DNA from: Vulcanimicrobiota bacterium
Lineage (GTDB): Bacteria > Vulcanimicrobiota > Vulcanimicrobiia > Vulcanimicrobiales > Vulcanimicrobiaceae
Length of the DNA stretch: 64,000 nt
Reading direction: 5' to 3'
NCBI GenBank assembly: GCA_003161435.1
Contig: PMOS01000030.1
Location: forward strand, 37,949-101,948
A program made the translations under genes and the position numbers. Below, one piece after another: positions 39,130 to 48,273 of this stretch (its first letter is position 1; each line of letters starts with the position of its first letter). The notes beneath the pieces are model-generated. The model was not told where the DNA came from. It made no database searches and was given only the letters and a program-made list of their open reading frames with translations.

Positions 39130-39186
39130 TTGGTGCGCGAGACTGGGCTCGAACCAGCACGCCCTTGCGGGCGCTAGCCCCTCAAG
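39130..39186. repeat. Left attachment site: truncated 3' copy of tRNA-Leu
   Basis: Identical over 57 bp to 48186-48242 (TTGGTGCGCGAGACTGGGCTCGAACCAGCACGCCCTTGCGGGCGCTAGCCCCTCAAG). Confidence 0.92.
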
Positions 39187-40620: not shown

Positions 40621-41277
40621 TCAAGGACGGACCTGTCCGGCATCGACAAGGCCCGTTTGATTGTTCAAATTGGATGCCGTGTCAGTCACATGCACCTTGT
40701 CATAGTCCTTCCATTGACTCTCCTGGCTGATACCACTGTGGCAATAGAGGCTTTCGCGACCAAGATACTTCACATGGATTCCCGCACTGATTGTGTCAAG
40801 ACCCTCCACTCGACCCAACAAATCTCTTGGCTCGGAATGACCGCTTGCAACGTCCTCCGCCATCACATCTAGCGCATTGCACCAGGCAGACTTCGTTTTG
40901 TAAAAGTAGGTCCATGATTGCGAAGACGAACCGACGATGGTGGCATGATTCTCGAATACGCGACGCGATGGTGGCGTCTCGCCGAATTCGACTGAAGAGC
41001 CTTGTTGCGTCACATGCATAGACGATTCCGTTGGAGGGCTTGTCGCGACATGAAGCGCGGGGCCCGGCGTGTATCGGTCGGCAGGCTCGGGCGTGGATGA
41101 TCGCGTCGCTACATCTTGTTCGCCGCCGAATACGTTGTGAACGACCTCGTACCCGCCGAAAACAATCAGGCCGACAACGGCCACGGCGGCGACCCCACAA
41201 CCCGCGAGTACCGCCTTCGCGCCAAACAACCGCCCAAGTACAAGCAGCACGACGACGAAGCCGATCAGCCAGATCAT
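40621..41277 (-). CDS. Hypothetical membrane-anchored protein (element cargo)
   Basis: MIWLIGFVVVLLVLGRLFGAKAVLAGCGVAAVAVVGLIVFGGYEVV two-helix N-terminus, soluble C-terminus. Confidence 0.55.
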   Translation of the reverse strand: MIWLIGFVVVLLVLGRLFGAKAVLAGCGVAAVAVVGLIVFGGYEVVHNVFGGEQDVATRSSTPEPADRYTPGPALHVATSPPTESSMHVTQQGSSVEFGETPPSRRVFENHATIVGSSSQSWTYFYKTKSAWCNALDVMAEDVASGHSEPRDLLGRVEGLDTISAGIHVKYLGRESLYCHSGISQESQWKDYDKVHVTDTASNLNNQTGLVDAGQVRP

Positions 41278-41584
41278 TGGGCCACAGTTTCGGCGGTTAA
41301 GGCATCGCGACCGCCCGGCTCCGTCTGGTTCGGCGCGAAATGGGCCTTCCCCAGCCCTGGCCGCCCGGCTGGACTCCTCGGCTCAGCCCGTTTCGACCCC
41401 AGGAACAGCGTTCGGCGCGATCTGGCGGTCAGGAAAACTCAGCGTCGATCTGACGCCGCATGATGAACAAATCGTCCGGCATCCAAAGGTCAGGCGGCTT
41501 CTCAAGGTCGGCTAGTTGCTAGGCCCAGCGCCCAAAGCGACGAAGGCTCAAGGTAGAACATCGCGCGACAAGGAGAGTGGCCTC

Positions 41585-42574
41585 GTGATTCTTTACGACG
41601 CGGAAGCGATCCGGGGAAAAATCAAGTCCGTTCTCGCCACAAGGAATGGCCGACGCTACGCTCTCGTGGCCTTTGTTGGTCAAGACGCGCTGGCTTTCGT
41701 CCACGAGCCCAAGGGCCTCATTGTGTACTGCTGGCCAAATGTCGCGGCGACCAGTCCAGATGGCGTGAAGAGTCTAATTAGCAAGGGCGCAAAGGTCTAC
41801 TTCGTAGACCGCCTACACATGAAGTTGTTCTGGTCGAATGGTGGAGGCGCTGTTATCGGCTCATGCAATCTTACGCAAAACGCCCTCGGTGGTGGAGCGA
41901 CTTCACTACGCGAAATGGCGTACTTCACGCCCGATGCGTCTCAAATACGTATTGATGACGTTTTAGCAACATTAAAGGCTTCCAGATGTGAGGTAACGAC
42001 TTCTGTACTCGCGGCATACCGCAAACAATACAACGCCGCGGCAGCGCGTCGAGACGAGTGGAAGCACAGTCGCGCTAAACAAAGACCCAAGACCGTCACA
42101 TTCGCGGAATATATGCGTGAACCGCTTAAGAGGGACCAACGAATAGTGACGACATGGTGGAACGGCTACGAAGACAAGGTGCCAAAGGCAATCATAGAAG
42201 CGGTGCGCGTATTTGAGGACGAATCTGAAACACGCGACCCGGAAAAGTTCATCTTGGACTACGTCTATTGCATCGGCACACCTAAGCGTGGCGATTGGAT
42301 TCTCGCCTGCAGGCTTGGTCAAAACGGTGGATATGGTAGACTGCACTGGGTATTTACTCACGTGGTCGCTAAGCGTCGGAAGAATGGCGGCCAGTGGGCG
42401 GCAATCGAACTCAAACGGACGACGGAAGCCGCGCCCTTCGATTGCAAAGACCAACGGTTCGTCGCGGCCTTCAGACAATATGCTGAAGAAGTGGGGTTCG
42501 AGCGGAAGGAGACTTTGGTGCTTACCGAGCCAAGGCTCGCCAAAATTGCCGCGTACTGGTCAGAAGCGGATTGA
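41585..42574 (+). CDS. Phospholipase D-like single-HKD protein with unrecognised C-terminal domain (element cargo)
   Basis: HMKLFWSNGGGAVIGSCNLTQNALGGG (HxKx4Nx6GSxN); GTG start preceded by AAGGAG at 9-nt spacing; tracked ORF begins at 41516. Confidence 0.75.
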   Translation: MILYDAEAIRGKIKSVLATRNGRRYALVAFVGQDALAFVHEPKGLIVYCWPNVAATSPDGVKSLISKGAKVYFVDRLHMKLFWSNGGGAVIGSCNLTQNALGGGATSLREMAYFTPDASQIRIDDVLATLKASRCEVTTSVLAAYRKQYNAAAARRDEWKHSRAKQRPKTVTFAEYMREPLKRDQRIVTTWWNGYEDKVPKAIIEAVRVFEDESETRDPEKFILDYVYCIGTPKRGDWILACRLGQNGGYGRLHWVFTHVVAKRRKNGGQWAAIELKRTTEAAPFDCKDQRFVAAFRQYAEEVGFERKETLVLTEPRLAKIAAYWSEAD

Positions 42575-42598
42575 ACGGCTCACTCCTAGGTGCGCTAT

Positions 42599-42739
42599 GG
42601 ACGGACCTGTCCCGCCTCGACAAGTCCGGTTTGATTTGTTCAAAATCGACGCCAAGCAGAAACAGCACGATCACGAAGCCAATCAGCCAGATCATCGGGC
42701 CACGGCTTCGGCGGTTAAGGCATCGCGACGGCCCGGCTC
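42599..42739 (-). pseudogene. Internally deleted relic of the 40621-41277 gene
   Basis: 42660-42739 matches 41242-41321 at 72/80 by eye (5' end of gene); 42599-42650 resembles 40625-40675 (3' end); middle missing. Confidence 0.65.
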
Positions 42740-42770
42740 TATCTCCGAAACGCTTAGATCGCGATCACGA

Positions 42771-44045: not shown

Positions 44046-44074
44046 GCTCATATTGATACAATACCAATATGAGC
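44046..44074. promoter_or_regulatory. 29-bp near-palindrome overlapping the serine recombinase start codon
   Basis: GCTCATATTG...CAATATGAGC perfect 10-bp arms around 44060; start codon at 44069. Confidence 0.55.
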
Positions 44075-44644
44075 AACCGCTTCATTGGTTATTGTCGCGT
44101 TTCGACGGGCCTGCAATCCGTGGATGGTCAGGTCGATGCCCTGAAGGCGGCGCGGTGCAGTGTCATCTTCGGGGACGAGGGCGTTTCCGGTGCGCTGTCG
44201 TCCCGGCCGGAACTCGACCGCTGCCTCGCATCATTGAACCAAGGTGACACCCTCGTGGTCGTCGCGCTCGACAGGCTGGGCAGATCGGCGGCGCACCTTT
44301 TCACAACCGTGGAGAGCCTTGTAGCACGCGGCGTCGGCTTCCTGAGCCTGCGTGAGAACATCGACACCACCACGGCGACGGGAAGGCTCGTCCTGGGCGT
44401 TTTCAGCGCCTTGGCCGCGTTCGAGAGAGATTTGGTCCGGGAACGCACCGTCGCCGCGTTACAGGCCAAACGGCGGCGCGGTGAAACGCTCGGTCGGCCG
44501 CGTGCCATGACACCTTCGCAGGTCGCCGCCGCCGTGAAGATGCTACATGACGGCGAGGCACCATCTCATGTAGCACGTCTATTCAAGATTGACCGTTCGA
44601 CCCTGAATCGGGCCATCGCCCGACAAAATTCGAAGGTTCCATAG
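44069..44644 (+). CDS. Serine recombinase (resolvase/invertase family)
   Basis: IGYCRVSTGLQSVDGQVDAL, LVVVALDRLGRSAAHLF, VFSALAAFERDLVRERTVAALQAKRRRGETLGRP, C-terminal HTH. Confidence 0.95.
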   Translation: MSNRFIGYCRVSTGLQSVDGQVDALKAARCSVIFGDEGVSGALSSRPELDRCLASLNQGDTLVVVALDRLGRSAAHLFTTVESLVARGVGFLSLRENIDTTTATGRLVLGVFSALAAFERDLVRERTVAALQAKRRRGETLGRPRAMTPSQVAAAVKMLHDGEAPSHVARLFKIDRSTLNRAIARQNSKVP

Positions 44645-44977
44645 CACAACGGGGTGCCACATTCGCATCGGTATCCGAACCGGCGACGTTTACCCCCGGT
44701 GCCCTGGTCGGCGCGGCTCAATGCCGTGCCGAACGCATGTGAGCGTTTCGCTCTGAAACAACGATGCCCCGAGATATTGTACCATCCTGCTTCTTCGTGA
44801 GCGGCTCCATACGAAAAGGGCCTGCGCTTCGAGCCGACCCAATCGCGAACTGCCAAGATGATACCAGACGAGGTCCGAATCAGTTTCGATTACCTTCTTC
44901 TGCTAGACCAAGACCAAACATATCAATGCAGTCGATCAACATACGCACTACTTGACCTCTATGAAGGGTGAACCAAG

Positions 44978-45154
44978 ATGGCATGTGTACTTTGTGCAGG
45001 CGCTCGCAGATGTTCAAACTGCAACGGCGCAGGTCAGGTTGGGCCGAACTTCCCCTGTTCATGGTGTAATGGATCAGGAGTATGCTACTTGTGCGCCGGA
45101 ACCGGGCGGGTCGGGCCGAACTTCTCCTGTTCCTGGTGCAATGGATCAGGGTAG
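44978..45154 (+). CDS. 58-aa small protein with repeated CxxC/CNGxG zinc-finger-like units (DnaJ-like)
   Basis: Translated by hand: MACVLCAGARRCSNCNGAGQVGPNFPCSWCNGSGVCYLCAGTGRVGPNFSCSWCNGSG*; AGGGTG upstream of ATG; not in ORF track. Confidence 0.65.
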   Translation: MACVLCAGARRCSNCNGAGQVGPNFPCSWCNGSGVCYLCAGTGRVGPNFSCSWCNGSG

Positions 45155-45644
45155 CCTCTACCTTAAACGCCAAGTAGGTTACCTGATTCTCTGTTCGGGA
45201 GTCGAACCGGCTTTGTACCTACTTCTGCCATCCGGAGTAGTGGGAACACGTCCTGCTAGTAACTTACGCTGGCTCAAGAATGTGTATCCGAAGTGATAGA
45301 TTTCGCCCTGGCCGGGCAAAATCGTAACTGCATCCGATGGATGAGTTCCGCCACTAGGTGTTATTCCAAACATGCACTTTTGGATTCTGCGTGGTGGGAA
45401 GCATTTACCACGCAGGTTTACACCATCGTCTCCGGTAGCCATAGACACGCATCGACAATTAGCCGAACCTCGTCACGGGGTAGGCACCGCATGGGCACCG
45501 CATATCACCGTCGTTTGTCTTTTCTATTGGTTAGATAGGATCGGTCATCTCCCACTATGCGCAGGCTTATTTATCCACGGTACTGCTTGGACGACCACTT
45601 GCTCTTTCGAGGCCTTCCCGTGCTGTTCAGTTATGATTTAAAAT

Positions 45645-45690
45645 GAAAAACCCCAGGTAGTTCACGGCTATCCGGGGTTCTTCTCTCTCT
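45645..45690. terminator. Rho-independent-type terminator hairpin
   Basis: AACCCCAGGTAG-TTCACGG-CTATCCGGGGTT followed by CTTCTCTCT, preceded by an A-run. Confidence 0.6.
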
Positions 45691-45790
45691 GATCGCGGCC
45701 GATGCCAGCGGGAGAAATCTTGATCCGACGCCGTGAACGTTTCTGATAGTAGTAGTATATGCTACTTCCGCCGAATTGTATCATCCGATC

Positions 45791-45994
45791 CTACTCGGTG
45801 ATCCCGAAGTCGGCCAGCACTTTTGGCAACTTCTCGTTGTAGTACGACAACTTTCCTTCCATCGCGATTCTCGCGTTCGAAAAAACCTCGATGAAGAAGG
45901 CGTGCTTGACGATGATCGAGCACGCCTCTGCAAGGCACTGAGGTCTCCTTGAAGCGGCGGAATACTCATCTACGAAGTCGCTCATACAATCCAA
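45791..45994 (-). CDS. Small hypothetical protein (element cargo)
   Basis: MSDFVDEYSAASRRPQCLAEACSIIVKHAFFIEVFSNARIAMEGKLSYYNEKLPKVLADFGITE; composition looks coding. Confidence 0.4.
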   Translation of the reverse strand: MDCMSDFVDEYSAASRRPQCLAEACSIIVKHAFFIEVFSNARIAMEGKLSYYNEKLPKVLADFGITE

Positions 45995-46672
45995 TTATAC
46001 CGCTGCGAACGAGGCTCGCAAAGCGAACGGCCTGGGCTCGTCAATATATTTACCGAATAGGCCGAGGCGCGATGACGCAACGCACGTCGTTAGGTTCGGC
46101 GACGCCACGCGCTCGACCCATTCCATCGTTCAGTTTTCAAGGTTCGTGCGCCGAACGCCATGTCGTGGCGACTTCGGGAGACTTGGCCCCGCGCTCTCTG
46201 CCGACGTTGATCTCGAAGCCGCGCCGCCCGTCGCGCGCTGGCAATCTGGCTTGATGCAAGAGCGGATTCAATCCTCGGTCAACCCGAGGAGATTGTCAAG
46301 CCCCCAACATTCCCGCTCTCGTGAACTCCATCCGCGTGTTTCGCTCGCATCGTTTTACAGTGGAATGAATGGCGGGGAAAGTATGCGGATGTGACATCTT
46401 GATTCAATAACACCTTGATGCACCGAACACACGTAGTTCCTTCGACCTAAAGGTTACCATCGGTGCGCCTGCAAATGGGCTTCGTTAACCGCGTGTTTCC
46501 GCCCAATGCGCTACAGAGCCATTCGTGACTCGCCTCGTCGGTGATATGCTGAGAGCATAGTAAATTCCCTGCGCCCGAACACCGTCGAGCCGCTGGCTTT
46601 GCGAATAGAGTTTAATTCGCCTTAGTTCGCTAAATCCTACAGTATCGTTGATCAGTGCGCGATGATTCCAGC

Positions 46673-46921
46673 ATGAGCCGCAAGAATCGCCAAACTGATC
46701 GCCATAGCCCCAGCACCGTCCCATCACACACAGACCTTGAATACAGCGAGACTCGTCTGACCGTGAGCGCGAGGGAAGCGTGGTCGTTCCTCGGGTGCGG
46801 GAAGACGACGTTTTACCACATCCTAAAGCAAAATTTGCTGACCCGCATCCCGGCTGGGCGGCGCGTTCGCTATCTCCGCGCGGAACTGGAAGGGTTGGCG
46901 CGAAAAGGCTGGTTCTCGTGA
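46673..46921 (+). CDS. Excisionase-like HTH protein
   Basis: LTVSAREAWSFLGCGKTTFYHILKQNLLTRIPAGRRVRYLRAELEGLARKGW; stop overlaps the integrase ATG. Confidence 0.75.
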   Translation: MSRKNRQTDRHSPSTVPSHTDLEYSETRLTVSAREAWSFLGCGKTTFYHILKQNLLTRIPAGRRVRYLRAELEGLARKGWFS

Positions 46922-48126
46922 TGGCCAAAAAGCGCAACTATGGCTCAGGGACCATCGTCGCCGATCCGGCTGACTCAAAGGCGTTCATCGGCTATCTTCG
47001 CCGCACCATCGACGGTAAACGTCACAAGTCGCCCGTCTTCCGAGGGACAAAGAGGCGCGACGTGGATATTCAACTCAAGAACTGGGAGGCCGCTGGCGGT
47101 TTCAACAAGATGCTGTCTGAACGACAGCCGCGAGATCGCGAAAGCGTCTACACGGTTGGGCAGTACCTTGACGAGTGGTATCCGCGCGCGGCGCGCAACT
47201 GGGCTGACACGACCCTCGGTACGAACCGCTCAACGTTCAATAGGTGGTGCAAGGAGCAGACCTTCTGCGGCCTCCCATTTGCTGAAGTGAAGAAACAGGA
47301 CGTGCAAGACTTTTTCAGCCGGATGCCTGAGAAGACGAGCGAGGGGACGAGATCGCGTGTACATCGGCTTCTGCACGCCGCATTCCAGGATGCCGTAGAC
47401 GATGACCGCTTGTCCAAGAACGTCGTCAAGACCAGTACCAGTCCGACTAAGCCGAAGAGCAAGGTCGTGGAGGCGTTTCATCCGATCCATGAAGCCGCGC
47501 TGGTGCGCTCCGTGGCAGGCGACCCGTATTGGCATGCGCTGATCTTGGTCGCGCTGGACACGGGAATGCGGCAGGCCGAGATTCTTGGGCTCCAGGTGCG
47601 GGAGGTGGACTTCATGCGCGGCGAGGTTCGCGTCCGACGCACTTGTGACACCGTGGAGCGCGTTCCCGTCGTCTCTGAGGGCGCGAAGACGGACGGAAGC
47701 ATCCGGGACATCCAGATCGCTCCCGAGACGCTAGAGGCGCTGAGATCGCTGGTGGTAGGGAAGGGCGAGCGGGACCACCTCTTCACGGAGGAGGGGACGC
47801 TATGGACGCGCACCCGGTTCTACGACGCGTGGCTGGCAAAAATCGCCCGAGCGGGCCTGCCGCACTACAAATTCCATAGTCTCCGCCACACCTGCGCGAC
47901 CTCGCTCTTGCGCCAAGGATGCTACCTAACGGCAGTAAGCAAGCGACTCGGGCACTCACGGCCGAGCATCACGCTGGACATCTACTCCTCCTTCCTTCCG
48001 GCTGATCAAACGCCGCTGACGCTCGCCTTCAGCGCCCGCCTTAAAGAGCATAGTTCGCCGAAGTCCGTCGAGGCCCAGGAAATTGGCACCCAGATTGGCA
48101 CTTCGGAGGTTCCAACGGCGGCATGA
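46921..48126 (+). CDS. int: Tyrosine recombinase/phage-type integrase
   Basis: ALDTGMRQAEILGLQVREVDF, HSLRHTCATSLLRQG, LGHSRPSITLDIYSSF catalytic motifs; adjacent to tRNA. Confidence 0.95.
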   Translation: MAKKRNYGSGTIVADPADSKAFIGYLRRTIDGKRHKSPVFRGTKRRDVDIQLKNWEAAGGFNKMLSERQPRDRESVYTVGQYLDEWYPRAARNWADTTLGTNRSTFNRWCKEQTFCGLPFAEVKKQDVQDFFSRMPEKTSEGTRSRVHRLLHAAFQDAVDDDRLSKNVVKTSTSPTKPKSKVVEAFHPIHEAALVRSVAGDPYWHALILVALDTGMRQAEILGLQVREVDFMRGEVRVRRTCDTVERVPVVSEGAKTDGSIRDIQIAPETLEALRSLVVGKGERDHLFTEEGTLWTRTRFYDAWLAKIARAGLPHYKFHSLRHTCATSLLRQGCYLTAVSKRLGHSRPSITLDIYSSFLPADQTPLTLAFSARLKEHSSPKSVEAQEIGTQIGTSEVPTAA

Positions 48127-48184: not shown

Positions 48185-48186
48185 AT

Positions 48187-48273
48187 TGGTGCGCGAGACT
48201 GGGCTCGAACCAGCACGCCCTTGCGGGCGCTAGCCCCTCAAGCTAGTGCGTCTACCAATTCCGCCACTCGCGC
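48187..48273 (-). tRNA. tRNA-Leu (anticodon GAG), CCA encoded
   Basis: GCGCGAG acceptor, D-arm GCGGAATTGGTAGACGC, anticodon arm CTAGC-TTGAGGG-GCTAG, variable arm CGCCCGCAAGGGCG, T-arm GCTGGTTCGAGCCCAGT, CTCGCGCACCA. Confidence 0.95.

Follow-up and report, generated by a model that had tools for sequence, protein, structure and literature searches.

The window analysed here, i.e., the whole stretch of 64,000 nucleotides, contains a 9.06-kb element bounded by perfect 57-bp att repeats, and an overlooked 58-aa open reading frame (referred to below as P0001) is located inside this element. The features revealed in the region are the following:

39130–39186, plus strand: att repeat of 57 bp, left end of the element (repeat search; empty site in sister genomes)
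44069–44644, plus strand: serine recombinase of the resolvase/invertase type (Pfam Resolvase, E=6e-41; phrog_125, E=1e-61)
44964–44970, plus strand: Shine-Dalgarno-like AAGGGTG, 7 nt upstream of the ATG of P0001 (from the sequence)
44978–45154, plus strand: P0001, gene of the 58-aa CxxC mini protein (translation, Pfam, family profile)
45038–45079, plus strand: duplicated segment, copy 1, VGPNFPCSWCNGSG, P0001 residues 21–34
45110–45151, plus strand: duplicated segment, copy 2, VGPNFSCSWCNGSG, P0001 residues 45–58, origin of the fifth motif
46655–46921, plus strand: excisionase (Xis)-like HTH protein (HTH_17, E=5e-4; TIGR01764, E=0.009; phrog_66, E=0.001)
46780–48126, plus strand: tyrosine integrase, a listed ORF whose true start is possibly downstream (Phage_integrase, E=2e-20; phrog_1, E=4e-57)
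48186–48242, plus strand: att repeat, right end of the element, identical 57 bp, within tRNA-Leu (repeat search; empty site)
48187–48273, minus strand: tRNA-Leu (GAG), integration target (tRNA/RNA family search)

The integrase beside the tRNA gene, the direct repeats and the empty site in relatives define a tRNA-targeted integrative element. In the sister genomes G092 (L025) and G088 (L031) the site is empty, and the flanks join across one copy of the repeat. The third-position GC content is 0.56 for P0001 and 0.59–0.71 for the other element genes, the integrase being left out of these figures, vs. 0.82–0.88 for two chromosomal genes. The sequence-only reading that drew attention to P0001 had described it as free-standing and carried by a mobile element, and both descriptions proved to be correct: the protein is composed entirely of CxxC units with no other domain matches, and its carrier is delimited by the att repeats at the tRNA-Leu gene.

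Several other regions of the element should be mentioned. Between P0001 and the Xis-like gene (45155–46650), about 1.5 kb with a GC content of ~0.49–0.57 contain no convincing gene and gave no Rfam matches. A 93-nt direct repeat (87%) is located at 41234–41326 and 42652–42744, and two minus-strand ORFs, a longer one at 40621–41277 and a short one at 42522–42695, both start with MIWLIGFV; together these suggest a duplicated membrane-protein gene. A 352-aa protein encoded at 41516–42574 has weak PLD-like (E=0.0017) and PADLOC ZacB (E=0.004) matches and is possibly a nuclease-type cargo of the element.

The P0001 frame translates exactly as had been read, into 58 residues followed by a TAG stop. 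Ten of them are cysteines, forming the pairs C3/C6, C12/C15, C27/C30, C36/C39 and C51/C54, and the Shine-Dalgarno-like site and ATG start noted earlier are both in place. The protein had been described as built from repeated CxxC/CNGxG units; this holds for the five CxxC motifs but not for all of their glycines, as motif I (CVLCAGAR) is devoid of the second Gly. The double occurrence of VGPNF[PS]CSWCNGSG and of the matching DNA was confirmed (direct repeat D3, 59 nt, 81% identity, spacing 72 nt). Residues 1–44 constitute the core common to the family described below while residues 45–58 are a copy of residues 21–34, and motif V is the product of a 42-nt internal duplication. No export segment was found in the protein, and defence families searched with it gave no matches. 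Rfam families in the flanks of the gene comprised tRNA only.

Longer frames overlap P0001 on both strands (44952–45296, plus; 44880–45173, minus), and therefore the choice of frame needed testing; a Pfam search of these two frames revealed no families. It could be supposed that P0001 is a non-coding or decayed sequence, either a chance frame in which the internal repeat has produced the many cysteines or a piece of a DnaJ gene, since the ORF is short and overlapped, is followed by the ~1.5 kb without clear genes, and has no consensus promoter or terminator that we could find around it. However, the pattern of substitutions and especially homology point in the other direction. The two 72-nt units of P0001 have 20 differences, distributed as 5/5/10 by codon position in the claimed frame, and all nine Cys/Gly of the unit are retained (simulated chance with random placement, 4.5e-4). 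In the 42-nt core (residues 21–34 vs. 45–58), four out of five changes are synonymous (p of so few replacements, 0.016). These two tests overlap and involve few sites, so that by themselves they are suggestive.

Homology rules out chance more strongly. A leave-one-out profile made of 10 relatives without P0001 was scanned over 1245 six-frame segments of the window and matched the P0001 frame with 58 bits (E=5.2e-17), the runner-up segment having E=0.05; the relatives themselves came from searches with P0001, which makes the independence of this match incomplete. In 2000 composition-preserving shuffles of P0001 the top score was 5.8 bits vs. 58, and thus the match reflects the order of residues and not their composition. 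It spans all four core motifs, including the non-duplicated half of the protein, and the start codon adjoins the first Cys like in the relatives. Furthermore, the CxxC spacing is 9-15-9 in P0001 vs. 17-26-14 in the DnaJ of the host genome, which matches P0001 at only E=0.15. From these comparisons, P0001 is very probably a genuine, unannotated protein-coding gene, and we consider a non-coding or decayed origin highly improbable.

When P0001 was searched against 149 phylum genomes, relatives were revealed in seven other genomes, each outside the taxonomic family of the window. Their translations show the form CxxCxG..CxxCxGxG-linker-CxxCxGxGxCxxCxGxG, and stand-alone relatives of the same form were found in Atribacteria (54 aa) and on a Rhodococcus plasmid (53 aa). 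Many of the phylum relatives have a hydrophobic segment at the N-terminus, which makes their export probable. The stand-alone proteins are located as follows:

L004:2457-2621: compact CxxCxGxG protein of Atribacteria
L010:4001-4162: compact CxxCxGxG protein of the Rhodococcus plasmid
L100/L102/L103: compact CxxCxGxG proteins of Streptomyces plasmids
L081: compact CxxCxGxG protein in a genome of the window's taxonomic family

In an alignment of 11 sequences (P0001, the Atribacteria and Rhodococcus proteins and the phylum relatives) 15 columns are invariant, and every one of them is Cys or Gly. The same 15 columns are invariant in six stand-alone proteins of 41–58 aa, which start at most four residues from the first Cys. 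The spacing of CxxC starts is 9-(14 to 22)-9 in the relatives and 9-15-9-15 in P0001; in the L081 protein each short gap is longer by two residues. Judged by these columns and this spacing, P0001 shares the Cys/Gly framework of an unnamed compact CxxCxGxG family and in this sense belongs to it. The other compact 9-x-9 proteins (L004, L010, L100/L102/L103, L081; 41–55 aa) have the framework and the start of P0001 but contain four motifs, whereas P0001 has the duplicated fifth one added.

Profile A1 gave matches at E<=1e-4 in 16 of the 149 phylum genomes, a few of these being DnaJ or other larger proteins. Viral contigs searched with P0001 and profile A1 contained no relatives, and the matches among phage proteins were DnaJ or larger multi-motif proteins with E>=0.1. 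A match on a Halobiforma plasmid (L009:3479-4513) was rejected as a mini protein, being 344 aa long; it contains a long CxxC run, and the plasmid table lists no gene there. On the Rhodococcus and Streptomyces plasmids, the genes of the stand-alone 41–53-aa CxxCxGxG proteins (L010, L099–L103) are also absent from the record tables at their positions, the annotation being that of the PLSDB table, itself incomplete. Among phylum proteins, those at L053, L054, L055, L056, L057 and L059 combine a common N-terminal domain (..NGHPSKAQV..VPVSFPVE..) with a tail of the CxxCxGxG type and are probably secreted, and a rhomboid-like membrane protein (L060:1489-2343) carries a CxxCxGxG module at its N-terminus, as seen by eye.

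Conservation of the frame and dN/dS in homologous elements had been named in the sequence-only reading as a check. No close homologue of P0001 was found among 99 genomes of the window's taxonomic family, and in the genus the intergenic region of P0001 gave a single 35-nt DNA match and otherwise no close relatives. Because these 99 genomes contain no close homologous element, conservation of the frame was judged at the level of the protein family only, where the frame is conserved, and selection on P0001 itself was judged from the internal duplication only. The dN/dS between its two 42-nt copies is 0.05 (few sites). Among the plasmid proteins, whose sequences are short, dN/dS is 0.11 for the Rhodococcus pair and 0.08, 0.10 and 0.25 for the Streptomyces pairs, with two linker codons removed in the comparisons of the S. 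globosus copy. By these ratios, the compact-family relatives that can be compared evolve under purifying selection.

Modules of the CxxCxGxG type are familiar chiefly from DnaJ. The DnaJ Cys-rich domain has motifs like those of P0001, four of them in its core, and the DnaJ-type zinc modules proposed earlier find good support in the sequence: P0001 matches Pfam DnaJ_CXXCXGXG (PF00684) with E=4e-5 and 24.2 bits, under the 32.7 cut-off, and with profile A1 the zinc domain of DnaJ (1exk) is matched at E=2.5e-6. Membership in the DnaJ family itself was rejected. P0001 contains CxxC units only and is devoid of the J domain with its HPD and of the G/F and C-terminal domains, unlike a type I Hsp40; its score is below the PF00684 cut-off; and since its spacing (9-15-9-15) is unlike that of the host's own DnaJ, it is not a DnaJ fragment.

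For the single sequence of P0001, the top-scoring solved relative is the RtpA anti-TRAP (PF15777, NF058604; PDB 2bx9, 3lcz), which is likewise free-standing, ~53 aa long and contains CxxCxGxG motifs. P0001 residues 11–42 (motifs II–III out of five) align with the anti-TRAP zinc hairpin, and profile A1 matches 3lcz with E=0.001. The RtpA/anti-TRAP match (E=5e-5) has 23.4 bits vs. the 65-bit equivalog cut-off of NF058604, so P0001 was rejected as an anti-TRAP equivalog. Anti-TRAP has two motifs and a trimer-forming region, while P0001 has five motifs and is devoid of that tail. Zinc is essential to the oligomers and function of the 53-aa anti-TRAP (PMC2896485). The plastid chaperones BSD2/ZnJ2 (PF25436) are J-less, stand-alone proteins of the holdase type with four CxxCxGxG motifs; ZnJ2 binds zinc and holds unfolded clients, and its holding activity in vitro is independent of Cys (PMC5818400). 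These proteins are eukaryotic, however, and P0001 matches Pfam BSD2_CRD at only E=0.12. The haloarchaeal zinc-finger mu-proteins are also small (<70 aa) and have paired Cys motifs but, compared by description, these are C(P)XCG pairs and not CxxCxGxG; in some of these proteins the predicted finger is metal-free or takes another metal (PMC11241148), a caution for the zinc binding predicted here.

The idea that P0001 engages the adjoining recombinase found no support. A four-motif protein was present at none of 17 loci with a related integrase or serine recombinase in the window's taxonomic family, although several of these loci lie on short contigs and the absence is incomplete proof. Two-motif segments at L094 and L088 were rejected as family neighbours of recombinases, being outside the compact family. 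Members of the family elsewhere adjoin unrelated genes, with no conserved neighbour pointing to a partner. P0001 is best seen as a passenger of the element.

We propose that this small passenger gene on the 9.06-kb element encodes a soluble protein of ~6 kDa, whose paired CxxC(xGxG) knuckles would bind zinc; zinc binding, as predicted from the motifs, is likely. Motifs II and III would form a hairpin like the anti-TRAP zinc site, and a second site may be made by motif I together with IV, or by IV together with the duplicated V, the odd number of CxxC motifs leaving one without an obvious partner. The AlphaFold2 model obtained from a two-sequence input had a pLDDT of 54.6 and was too poor for use. 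The zinc-stabilised surface would bind another protein, and P0001 would serve as adaptor, inhibitor or holdase in a mode likened to that of anti-TRAP on TRAP or of ZnJ2/BSD2 on clients. By analogy with these systems, a zinc-stabilised protein-binding adaptor or holdase is the most likely role, and to the explanation as a whole, from passenger gene to protein-binding product, we assign a probability of roughly 0.6.

Ten cysteines in 58 residues could also make P0001 a redox protein, in which the CxxC pairs serve as a thiol-disulfide shuttle or a zinc/thiol reservoir and not as a protein-binding adaptor. Oxidoreductase activity has been credited to the DnaJ Cys-rich domain (PMC5818400), and export, probable for many phylum relatives, would fit such a function, but P0001 itself has no export segment. 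Moreover, the motif glycines are as invariant as the cysteines, which fits zinc knuckles better than a thioredoxin-type CxxC, and the Cys-independent holding by ZnJ2 also speaks against a redox function. We regard it as improbable. Another explanation is that P0001 regulates in the manner of anti-TRAP, by blocking some nucleic-acid-binding protein encoded by the host or by the element, e.g., to control excision of the element. It draws on RtpA as the best-scoring solved relative and on the position of both Rhodococcus plasmid copies directly downstream of one same long gene. This gene, however, has no Pfam matches, the RtpA match is restricted to motifs II–III (23 vs. 65 bits), and a CxxC neighbour is absent at related recombinases, which makes such a specific regulator quite unlikely. 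The broader hypothesis that a widespread, unnamed and mostly unannotated family of double-zinc mini proteins of 40–60 residues, spread among unrelated bacteria by plasmids and integrative elements, provides interaction or counter-regulatory factors against host proteins in an anti-TRAP-like mode is tentative and rather doubtful.

The zinc-stabilised protein-binding adaptor or holdase proposed here would be built from a type of module known from DnaJ, anti-TRAP and ZnJ2/BSD2, in a five-motif variant of a compact, unnamed CxxCxGxG family. Compact stand-alone proteins of this kind are encountered repeatedly, both in distantly related bacteria and on plasmids, and are under selection, and the plasmid table lists no gene at their sites; thus, a real family probably escapes annotation. 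A profile of the family would provide a route to the distribution and partners of these proteins. If these proteins, carried on elements, bind proteins of the host, they would serve as simple models of mini regulators stabilised by zinc.
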